Shown: positions 5,245-21,453 of the stretch, one piece after another
How the letters are laid out: every line of letters begins with the position of its first letter
Position numbering within the stretch: the stretch's first letter is position 1
From: a virus
DNA: 34,896 nt
Reading direction: 5' to 3' (one strand)
IMG/VR virus record: IMGVR_UViG_3300036791_001912
Location: 1 to 34,896 of that record
The notes under the pieces: generated by a model
What the model was told of the DNA's origin: nothing
Databases searched by the model: none
What the model saw: the letters and a program-made list of their open reading frames with translations, nothing else
Position numbers and translations under genes: made by a program

Positions 5245-5655
5245 TCACCGTTCCTCAATGTCCGCGTCGGCACGTTCGCGTTCTTCTGCCGCCGCTAGTT
5301 CTTCATCGAACGTTGGAATGTGAAACGAATCAGGATCGAATGATTCATCATGCTCAACGATCTGTCCCAGCGGAACGAATCGTACTTCTAGTCCGACGTC
5401 GTGCGCGGATGCAATTCGCAGCAACGTCTCTAGATTAAAACGACGTTTGCTCGGTTTCTCGATTTCCGCGATTCGCGGCTGACTCATTCCGGCGCGTTCC
5501 GCAAGTTCTTCTTGTGTCCAGCCCTTTTGGATTCTGAGCTGTCGCGCCTGAAAAGGCAGCCCAATTGCAATTTGTGACGCGACATAGGCATCACGATATT
5601 CCTTGCTCTTGAGTTCAGCGATCAGCGATGAGTGTGTATTCACTGGAGTTGTCAC
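5245..5655 (-). CDS. XRE-type helix-turn-helix regulator
   Basis: A 136-residue protein. Residues 38-92 form a classic XRE domain: RQLRIQKGWTQEELAERAGM, SQPRIAEIEK, then RFNLETLLRIASAHDVGLEVRF. The family includes antitoxins such as HigA and phage or plasmid repressors. No toxin gene is adjacent, so a stand-alone repressor or orphan regulator is more likely. The start overlaps the previous stop (GTGA at 5655) and its stop lies within the ribosome site of the J-domain gene. The C-terminus is acidic and ends DIEER, as does the preceding gene, because both genes share a repeated junction sequence. Confidence 0.85.
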   Translation of the reverse strand: MTTPVNTHSSLIAELKSKEYRDAYVASQIAIGLPFQARQLRIQKGWTQEELAERAGMSQPRIAEIEKPSKRRFNLETLLRIASAHDVGLEVRFVPLGQIVEHDESFDPDSFHIPTFDEELAAAEERERADADIEER

Positions 5656-7104: not shown

Positions 7105-7731
7105 ATGCGGTTGACCGGGCTCTGGTGGTGGATCGATCGCTGGCGAAAAAGTACGGCCTACACGGACATGACCCTCACGGAACAGGGCGCCTACCGGAAT
7201 CTCCTGGATGAAGCCCATCTACGCGGCGGCCCCCTCCCAAATGACGAGCGTATCCTCGCCAAAGCGTGCGGCGATGCCATGGCATGGACATCGGTCCGCC
7301 AAGCAGTGTTAGCTCGGTTCGAACTCAAAGGCGACTGCTTATATAATGAAACCCTCAATGAGGTATTGCAGCGGTCGCGAGAAATGTCTGAGCGTCAATC
7401 ACTTAACAGCCGAAAACGGTGGGATAAATACAAAAACGGACACGCCACAAAGTCATCCCGCTTATCCCATTCACTGTCCCACTCGACATCCCAAATGGCA
7501 TCCCAAACCGATGCCACAACCTATCCCTCCGGATCCGGATCCGGATCCGGATCAGAAAGAGAAGAAGAAGAAGCGAAAAACCGTGCGGACGATTCAGCCG
7601 TGCCGCCGGGGAATGCCGACGCTGCCTCCCCCCCTGTAATCGAGCAGGAGAAAATACAAGAAATTCGTAAAGCGATGGCGGCGACCATGCGCCGCCCCCA
7701 TGACAAGCCGCCCCGGCCGGTGCCGCGATGA
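7105..7731 (+). CDS. DUF1376-family replication-type protein
   Basis: A 208-residue protein. Residues 1-90 match the DUF1376/YdaU-type phage family: WWIDRWRKSTAYTDMTLTEQ, GAYRNLLDEA, LPNDERILAKACG, then LYNETLNEVL. The family is found in phage replication regions, often upstream of helicase loaders. The middle is a Ser-rich linker with a Ser-Gly run encoded by GGATCC repeats (about 7530-7552), followed by a Glu run. The C-terminal end, IRKAMAATMRRPHDK, is nearly the same as that of the HTH replication protein at 9638-10399. GGAG lies seven bases before the ATG. It overlaps the next gene by four bases. Confidence 0.8.
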   Translation: MRLTGLWWWIDRWRKSTAYTDMTLTEQGAYRNLLDEAHLRGGPLPNDERILAKACGDAMAWTSVRQAVLARFELKGDCLYNETLNEVLQRSREMSERQSLNSRKRWDKYKNGHATKSSRLSHSLSHSTSQMASQTDATTYPSGSGSGSGSEREEEEAKNRADDSAVPPGNADAASPPVIEQEKIQEIRKAMAATMRRPHDKPPRPVPR

Positions 7732-8604: not shown

Positions 8605-8620
8605 GACACTACGTAGTATC
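8605..8620. promoter_or_regulatory. Palindromic site beside the partition genes
   Basis: The 16-bp near-palindrome GACACTACGTAGTATC contains the perfect 10-bp core ACTACGTAGT. A further GTAGT lies about 20 bp to the left. It straddles the end of the small ParA partner gene. It may be an operator or part of a centromere (parS-like) site for the partner protein. Confidence 0.35.
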
Positions 8621-8975
8621 ATCGGTCTCGTGGTTGGCGATGTTGTTTCAAGCGCCCATCCAGTTGCGCGGCCTCGCGATAGGCATCCAGGAACCCGGCG
8701 CCGGTCTTGGCTGTCCGCAGCGCAGCACGAATCACCATGCTATCGGTGGGACGCACGCCTTGCCCGGCCAGCCACGCGGCCAGCTCGCGGACCAATTGGC
8801 GGTCTTCCTGATGCAGCCAAAACTGAATCGGCTGCCCGACGCGGCGTGTCGTCCGGCTGTTGCGCGCGTTCACGGGCTCGACGGTCAGAGCGTCAAGCAC
8901 GGCGGGGCGTGGCGCGGTGCGCTGAATCGTCGCCAACAGGCCGTTGACCTTGGAGGTGGACGTTTTACGGCTCAT
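8619..8975 (-). CDS. Small ParA partner, possible centromere-binding protein
   Basis: A 118-residue basic protein directly after ParA, overlapping it by four bases. The N-terminal 45 residues look disordered and basic, as in ParG/omega-type partners. Residues 48-90 contain a strand QFWLHQEDR followed by two helices, LVRELAAWLAGQG and DSMVIRAALRTAK, consistent with a ribbon-helix-helix-like fold. In type Ib plasmid partition, a short ParA is paired with exactly this kind of small DNA-binding protein. A 10-bp tandem duplication, GGCTCATAAT, covers the gene overlap (8969-8988). The family assignment comes from position and pattern, not from a strong motif. Confidence 0.6.
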   Translation of the reverse strand: MSRKTSTSKVNGLLATIQRTAPRPAVLDALTVEPVNARNSRTTRRVGQPIQFWLHQEDRQLVRELAAWLAGQGVRPTDSMVIRAALRTAKTGAGFLDAYREAAQLDGRLKQHRQPRDR

Positions 8976-9592
8976 AATGGCTCATAATACTGAGTCTGTT
9001 TAGACTGTGTTGTCTGTGGAGTGTATGACGGCAGCGCTAGCACCGCCACGGCGAGCTGTAAGACTTCCTCGCGCGCCGGGCTGTCGAGCGCTTTCCAGCC
9101 TTGCCCCACGGCATGCTGATAACACTGGCGGGCGCTCAGGGTCGTCGGCAGGGCCGGCACGCTGAGCTGTTTCGCACTCGCCTCGACCAAGCGGCCTAGC
9201 AGCGTCCCTTTCTGCACTTTGTTGAAGGCCACGCGCACGATCGCCGTGGCGTTGCGCCCGTGGACGAAATGCACGGCGTCTTCGGCTTCCCAAATATCGG
9301 CGGGGGAGGGGCTGGTCACGACCAGCACGAGATCCGCATGTCGCACAGCGGTCGCGGTCGCCGTGTGGTCCAGGTTGGGCGGAGTATCGAAAATCACGAT
9401 CTCGGGCGTGCGGGCGTGCGGGTCAGTGGCCAAGAGGGCCAAGGCTTTGGTGCTGGTGCCCTGGACGTCCCAATCGTGCAGGGTCACGGCTTTGCCGGCC
9501 TGCCGAAAGGCTTCAAAGAGCAAAATCGAGAGCGTGCTCTTGCCGACGCCGCCCTTTTTGGCGAGAAGGGTAATATTCAACACAGTCTGCAT
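8972..9592 (-). CDS. parA: ParA-type partition ATPase
   Basis: A 206-residue P-loop ATPase. The deviant Walker A box KKGGVGKST lies at residues 12-20, the Walker A' Asp in HDWDVQGTS at about 40-47, and Walker B IVIFDTPP at 65-72. There is no N-terminal DNA-binding extension, which places it among the short (type Ib) ParA proteins. These move plasmid or phage-plasmid copies along the nucleoid. It is followed by a small basic partner gene and preceded by the Rep gene. The ATG at 9592 has no clear ribosome site. Other members of the superfamily (Soj, MinD) are less likely given the neighbours. Confidence 0.88.
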   Translation of the reverse strand: MQTVLNITLLAKKGGVGKSTLSILLFEAFRQAGKAVTLHDWDVQGTSTKALALLATDPHARTPEIVIFDTPPNLDHTATATAVRHADLVLVVTSPSPADIWEAEDAVHFVHGRNATAIVRVAFNKVQKGTLLGRLVEASAKQLSVPALPTTLSARQCYQHAVGQGWKALDSPAREEVLQLAVAVLALPSYTPQTTQSKQTQYYEPL

Positions 9593-9637
9593 ATTATCAT
9601 GAGTTTATGAAAGCTATGTAGAGTAACGACATCCGTG

Positions 9638-10399
9638 TCAGCGCTGGCCACGTCGTTTGTCATAGGGCCGACGCATGGCGGCGGCCATCGCTTTTCTCAG
9701 CTCACCGATACCAGGGGGGGCAGCCCACGAATTCCCCTGCGGCGGGACTGTACGCGGAACGCTCTTCTCTTTCTTTTCTTGATCTGATTCCTTATATGTA
9801 GCGACTGGGGAGTCGCTTAGTTGGGACTGAGCGACTGGGGAGTCGCTTAGTGAGGCTGACTGAACGACTGGGGAGTCGCTTAGTGAAGTTGACTGAGCGA
9901 CTGGGGAGTCGCTTAGTTGGGACTGAGCGACTGGGGAGTCGCTTAGTTGGGACTGAGCGACTGGGGAGTCGCTTAGTGAGGCTGACTGAACGACTGGGGA
10001 GTCGCTTAGTGAAGTTGACTGAGCGACTGGGGAGTCGCTTAGTTGGGACTGAGCGACTGGGGAGTCGCTTAGTGAGGCTGACTGAACGACTGGGGAGTCG
10101 CTTAGTGATATGGCCGTGACAATTACGTAGTCCAGCCCGGCGATATGTCCAGCCGCGTCGTATCGCTTCTTCGTCAGGATCGCCCCGGCGTCGCGGAGCA
10201 CCTGAAGCGCTCGCTCGATCGCCTTGACTGACAGGCCCAGATCCCCGGCGAGGGTCTGTCGCGTTGGCCCGTCACACTTCCAGTAGCGCGTGCCCAGCCA
10301 GACGTACACGAGCACCGCGTGCGCGTTGAAATCGACGCGTTCCACCACCCACTCGGGCACCATCTGAAACCGCCCGATGTCGTTTGGACGTTCGCACAC
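9638..10399 (-). CDS. HTH replication initiator-like protein with repeat linker
   Basis: A 253-residue protein from a GTG at 10399, preceded by GGAGGTG. Residues 10-95 form an HTH domain like that of plasmid and phage replication proteins: VPEWVV, HAVLVYVWLG, then GPTRQTLAGDLGLSVKAIER, ALQVLRDAGAI and a wing. Residues 98-200 are a Ser-rich linker of 10-11-residue units (LSDSPVAQS variants), encoded by ten copies of a palindromic DNA repeat. The end, LRKAMAAAMRRPYDK, matches the C-terminus of the DUF1376 protein. It heads the leftward Rep-ParA-partner unit. By analogy with lambda O, the initiator may bind the repeats inside its own gene; this is inference. Confidence 0.7.
   Translation of the reverse strand: MCERPNDIGRFQMVPEWVVERVDFNAHAVLVYVWLGTRYWKCDGPTRQTLAGDLGLSVKAIERALQVLRDAGAILTKKRYDAAGHIAGLDYVIVTAISLSDSPVVQSASLSDSPVAQSQLSDSPVAQSTSLSDSPVVQSASLSDSPVAQSQLSDSPVAQSQLSDSPVAQSTSLSDSPVVQSASLSDSPVAQSQLSDSPVATYKESDQEKKEKSVPRTVPPQGNSWAAPPGIGELRKAMAAAMRRPYDKRRGQR
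9801..10105. repeat. Ten-copy palindromic array, candidate replication origin
   Basis: Ten copies of CGACTGGGGAGTCGCTTAG occur, each containing ACT-GGGG-AGT arms (core GCGACTGGGGAGTCGC, first copy 9801-9816). They are separated by spacers of 11 or 14 bases of three types, giving unit lengths of 30 and 33 bp. All units are multiples of three, so the Rep frame stays open. A pyrimidine/AT-rich stretch (CTTTCTTTTCTTGATC, then CTTATATGTA) adjoins at about 9767-9800. Palindromic iterons inside an initiator gene next to an easily melted tract match the layout of lambda ori within gene O. Confidence 0.7.
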
Positions 10400-21096: not shown

Positions 21097-21453
21097 ATGC
21101 CAAGCAAACAGGTAACGATTCAGGGGGTGATGACCTGGGAGGGGAGCGGCGGGCCTGGTGACGGCGGTGAGCATCCGGCGCACCCGATCATGGGGCCGGG
21201 CATCCCGACGCATCCGATCGCGGGACCGCCTCCCGGCATCTGGCCGTCACCCGGCACGCCGACGCATCCGATCGCGGGACCACCTCCCGGCATTTGGCCG
21301 TCACCGGGCACGCCGACGCATCCCATCGTGATCCCTCCGGAAGCGCCGCCGCCGCTGGATATGGTCGCGCCGCCCGCCGTGAACGTGCCCGTGGAGTACA
21401 CGCTGATGTTTTCGCCGACCTATGGGTACGTGTTGATCCCGGCGAAGTCCTAA
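21097..21453 (+). CDS. Proline-rich repeat protein
   Basis: A 118-residue protein dominated by a Pro/Gly repeat, THPIAGPPPGIWPSPGTP, present twice as an exact unit, with partial copies around it. The last 30 residues (VEYTLMFSPTYGYVLIPAKS) could form a small strand unit. GAGGAGA lies before the ATG. Similar Pro-rich proteins occur in phage structural regions, but their role is unknown. It may be an extended linker or surface protein. Confidence 0.6.
   Translation: MPSKQVTIQGVMTWEGSGGPGDGGEHPAHPIMGPGIPTHPIAGPPPGIWPSPGTPTHPIAGPPPGIWPSPGTPTHPIVIPPEAPPPLDMVAPPAVNVPVEYTLMFSPTYGYVLIPAKS
21208..21315 (+). repeat. 54-bp tandem repeat, two copies
   Basis: The units 21208-21261 and 21262-21315 are nearly identical and encode 18 residues each of the Pro-rich protein. 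The unit length keeps the frame, so copy number could change without loss of the gene. Confidence 0.75.

Follow-up and report, generated by a model that had tools for sequence, protein, structure and literature searches.

The initiator-like gene at 9638-10399 on the minus strand of a contig from a soil-type phage carries ten inverted-repeat iterons within its own coding sequence, and the best-supported reading, which we consider probable, is that of a lambda-type origin, with the array inside the initiator gene and the melting region on its 3′ side. The contig (the window), classed as linear, makes up an entire IMG/VR virus record of 34,896 bp. A preliminary description had likened the site to the lambda O origin; the likeness gains support from the family matches of the protein, from the position of the array 3′ of the winged helix, from an A+T/purine-rich tract flanking the array on the side where lambda and P22 have theirs, and from DNA-level conservation of arrays in other phages.

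Ten matches to GCGACTGGGGAGTCGC lie at 9801-10101, in an iteron array placed at 9801-10106 on the minus strand, seven of them exact and three with one mismatch (starting ACGACT instead of following the consensus GCGACT-GGGG-AGTCGC); shuffled controls gave a mean of 1.2 and a maximum of five matches (with up to three mismatches), and no further copy occurs outside the array anywhere in the 34,896-bp contig. The ten 16-bp cores reported earlier inside the gene are thus borne out, and so are the units of 30 or 33 bp said to keep the frame: start-to-start distances on the plus strand are 30, 33, 33, 30, 30, 33, 33, 30 and 33, each a multiple of 3, and all ten iterons share one frame of the ORF. 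The term palindrome fits the arms, whose symmetry reaches about 26 bp in most copies (ACTgAGCGACT-GGGG-AGTCGCTtAGT; 10 of 11 arm positions), but not the centre, where GGGG is asymmetric, which makes the iteron an interrupted inverted repeat. Iteron plasmid origins of the P1 oriR type have direct repeats in helical phase that are bound by monomers; the repeats here are inverted. The first iteron is at codon 101, 300 nt into the gene and 3′ of the DNA-binding domain. Helical phasing of the iterons is at most suggestive, with R 0.82 at 10.5 bp, a value that 12% of 30/33 arrangements reach. Positions 9800-9925 and 9926-10051 are identical in sequence; a recent duplication of 126 bp thus accounts for part of the array.

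On the 3′ side of the array a candidate DNA-unwinding element is located at 9755-9800 (minus strand), A+T-rich and with a purine-rich coding strand. The 30-mer at 9768 has 27% GC, which is the lowest 0.03% of the contig, and the 40-mer at 9760 is 80% pyrimidine on the plus strand, within the top 0.1% of the contig for strand asymmetry; a pyrimidine/A+T-rich tract flanking the array, as described earlier, is therefore present. Over the 50 nt next to the array on its 3′ side, GC is 40%, in the lowest 2% of the gene, and purine is 70%. GC skew, which the preliminary description had proposed as a check, was uninformative, with no clear switch at the array; this, and the existence of a second candidate replication gene at 7105-7731, speak against the origin reading.

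The gene encodes a protein of 253 amino acids from a GTG start behind GGGAGGT, with a winged helix at residues ~10-95, the repeat-encoded linker at ~99-200 and then a C-terminal tail. Against PHROG profiles it matches phrog_270, “replication initiation protein”, with E 2e-9 over residues 13-156, a match that partly covers the repeats, and weakly the O-like families phrog_345 (E 7e-5) and phrog_678 (E 5e-3); HTH_36 fails the Pfam cut-off (E 0.0027), and Phage_rep_O (PF04492), the Pfam family of lambda O, gives no match at E<=1. An AlphaFold (AF2) model built from six aligned domains is winged-helix-like with a pLDDT of 75. The solved structures nearest to it belong to winged-helix proteins of a general kind, among them DnaD-N and an entry named “initiator”, none with E <0.001; on the viral side, HTH phage proteins are among its structural neighbours, as are RepA-like or replisome-organizer proteins. 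The phrog_270 match and the model together uphold the assignment as an HTH replication-type protein. No close relatives of the winged helix were found in the viral contigs or genomes searched, and tblastn of the repeat region against phages returned zero matches.

A search of phage genomes for the same arrangement, also proposed in the preliminary description, was carried out as pattern scans. Two spaced GACTCCCC sites led to a different phage with an HTH_36/phrog_270 gene (L223), in which four GTGACT-CCCC-AGTCAC copies directly follow the winged helix at 22-23 bp, so that successive copies fall in different reading frames. Scanning viral contigs for three GACT-N4-AGTC copies yielded 42 stretches, in which 12 array-bearing genes besides that of the window resemble replication genes of phages: six have matches to PHROG replication-initiation families (L223, L349, L352, L362, L373, L378), L358 matches a DnaD-like family only, and weakly, L370 has a sub-threshold HTH_36, and L354, L361, L374 and L380, without an informative match, were assigned by eye. 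A control scan with reversed arms (TCAG-N4-CTGA; 36 viral stretches) likewise recovered genes of initiator families, namely L391, L392 (Phage_rep_O PF04492, E 3e-13), L400, L406 and L404, and less certainly L408 and L417; the architecture thus appears to be general and the arm sequence free. A GACT-specific code common to all initiators was rejected on the same ground. A scan for single palindromes gave one copy per locus and was uninformative, and the triple scan of genome contigs found mostly coding tandem repeats and intergenic elements, with one initiator-like gene (L259, by eye). Relatives found through the portal protein mostly carry other replication genes; phrog_270 matches in 2 of 45, without this array. 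Short repeats were also seen between the DNA-binding and C-terminal parts of replication-type genes in two related P22-like phages (L210, 1590-1630, AGA x14; L211, 1250-1276, CCATCT x4.5).

The triple scans of viral contigs thus add about 19 phage genes with arrays, most of them in replication-initiator families, and in other phage initiators, too, the array sits immediately behind the winged helix. Eleven of the 19 have their copies in two or three reading frames without loss of the palindrome, which indicates that the DNA is conserved rather than the peptide. The arm sequence differs between phages while complementarity is kept; one base further out than the searched arms, 62 of 68 copies are still complementary, those of one gene not being independent. 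GC content in the 50 nt beyond the array on its 3′ side ranks in the lowest 12% of the gene in 12 of 18 genes (one near-duplicate dropped; binomial p 8e-8) and, with similar genes merged, in 10 of 15 (p 1e-6), the 12% threshold having been picked after seeing the data.

The contig encodes virion proteins of the P22 type (portal, PF16510 E 4e-123; scaffold; coat; head-closure Hc3), and its structural region holds a 54-bp tandem repeat of 2.3 copies (21205-21328). An HTH transcriptional regulator, possibly a prophage repressor, is encoded at 5245-5655 (phrog_1373, E 2e-13). Directly downstream of the initiator gene, on the same strand, lies a gene for a ParA-like ATPase of 206 amino acids (8972-9592; phrog_164 E 3e-20, AAA_31 E 1e-11) for which no close relatives were found in the viral contigs searched. 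The 45 bp that separate the stop of the initiator gene from the start of parA (9593-9637) overlap the 60 bp with the highest A+T content in the contig (9567-9626) and may be a promoter or centromere. The stop of parA is overlapped by an ORF of 118 amino acids (8619-8975, minus strand) whose second half looks RHH-like by eye and which may encode a small RHH ParB-like protein; it has no Pfam or PHROG match, and its AF2 single-sequence model is of low confidence (pLDDT 46).

The second candidate replication gene (7105-7731, plus strand) encodes a DUF1376/primosomal-type protein (PF07120 E 1.5e-11, phrog_9327 E 1e-16), and the C-terminal region of the initiator (9647-9720, minus strand), with the tail LRKAMAAAMRRPYDK, has a counterpart in it (9641-9720 against 7631-7728). 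This tail, [IL]RKAMAA[AT]MRRP[YH]DK, is shared by two otherwise unrelated replication-type proteins (BLASTP E 1e-7; score 96 against a maximum of 70 in 2000 shuffles) and is absent from every other ORF of the fetched loci. Inside the DUF1376 gene, at 7453-7582, six TCCC lie within 75 bp, four at an exact spacing of 12 bp, forming the densest such cluster on either strand of the contig, and are followed by four TCCGGA and a tract of 87% purine; these repeats and the purine tract are possibly a second origin. The contig, which may be incomplete, gave no match to DnaB (DnaB_C) or DnaC/IstB and none to a tyrosine integrase or serine recombinase.

Under the lambda-type reading, the initiator's own coding sequence would serve as origin: the encoded N-terminal domain would occupy the ten iterons as dimers, the A+T/purine-rich tract at 9755-9800 would be melted by the resulting nucleoprotein complex, and a replisome factor would be brought in by the C-terminal tail. 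That factor would probably come from the host, since the contig yielded no gene of the DnaB or DnaC type. The parA neighbour suggests that the replicon maintains an extrachromosomal prophage, and such a prophage with a host-recruited helicase is plausible from the sequence, given the shared tail and the missing matches to DnaB, DnaC/IstB, integrase and recombinase. More tentatively, and in our view rather doubtfully, the phage might possess a lytic replicon in the DUF1376 gene beside a plasmid-prophage replicon made up of the ten-iteron initiator, parA and the RHH protein; the two initiators, different in their DNA-binding domains, would then recruit the same host replisome factor through a common tail.

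The nearness of parA raises the question of whether the array instead functions as a type Ib partition centromere, where the RHH-like protein of 8619-8975 would bind the repeats and ParA would segregate an extrachromosomal prophage. Type Ib centromeres are commonly located upstream of parA, and here parA directly follows the array gene and is overlapped by the possible RHH ORF. However, when 13 other records (12 array phages plus Arthrobacter phage Altadena) were compared with the window, a ParA-type ATPase (PF13614) was encoded only in the window; the array goes with the initiator rather than with parA, and an A+T-rich 3′ side is no feature of a centromere. We consider this explanation unlikely, while a dual role of the array as origin and centromere is possible.

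The repeats might also merely encode a flexible Ser/Pro/Gln-rich linker that grew by tandem duplication, the palindrome being incidental. Since all copies of the window are in one frame, its gene taken alone leaves a role of the peptide possible, and the exactly duplicated 126 bp, as well as the fact that the same pattern in cellular genomes often represents ordinary coding tandem repeats, fit such an origin of the array; the 11 initiators with intact palindromes in different frames, and arms that vary and yet stay complementary, do not, which renders the linker explanation very improbable. Initiators often autoregulate, and inverted repeats can form RNA hairpins, so the array could, instead of an origin, be a set of operators for autoregulation of the initiator-parA operon, or of hairpins through which its expression is controlled. 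A position 300 nt into the gene, behind the DNA-binding domain and with the melting tract on the lambda side, speaks against this explanation, to which we give hardly any weight.

The lambda-type reading offers a concrete, testable candidate origin for a P22-like phage without close cultured relative. The palindrome-array scans suggest moreover that it is common among phages for the initiator gene to contain its own inverted-repeat origin, whose repeat sequence drifts freely while its symmetry is kept, and they provide a sequence-only route by which phage origins may be located and initiators matched with their binding sites.

In lambda, the iterons are inverted repeats which bind O dimers and lead to opening of the neighbouring A+T-rich region (PMC5043065). 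The four annotated lambda iterons, taken as a yardstick, start at codon 117 of O and are read in three frames, with 28% GC and 70% purine in the 50 nt on their 3′ side. Both in gene O and in the window inverted-repeat iterons follow the DNA-binding domain and precede an A+T/purine-rich tract; the window, however, has ten copies at 30/33 bp in one frame as opposed to four at 20-24 bp in three, a different repeat sequence, an initiator outside PF04492, and parA where lambda has P. P22, which shares the portal, scaffold, coat and head-closure types, also has its origin in a gene, gene 18, with four repeats spaced 20, 24 and 23 bp apart and, on their 3′ side, an A-rich tract; there a DnaB-type helicase gene (gp12) follows, whereas no phage helicase or loader gene like gp12 or lambda P was found beside the initiator in the window contig, which may be incomplete. 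SPP1 has two origins, of which oriL is located in gene 38, whose product gp38 binds to repeats within that same gene, next to an A+T-rich DUE (PMC6316719); these repeats are described as direct, unlike the inverted ones of the window, and SPP1 encodes its own loader and helicase. The mycobacteriophages Miko and Rachaly, extrachromosomal prophages with RepA and parABS, resemble the window in that the initiator adjoins parA; their authors suggest an origin maybe within repA, and no repeated motif was identified in the putative origin regions (PMC7157519). Altadena gp41, a phrog_270 protein of an actinophage, is 37% identical over the winged helix (E 4e-3), and a 24-nt repeat occurs twice after the domain, in direct copies only and, unlike in the window, without ParA. 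The design of an origin within the initiator gene is already known, and it would occur here in an initiator from outside the lambda O family; distinctive of the window are the ten copies, their spacing, the linkage to parA and the shared tail.
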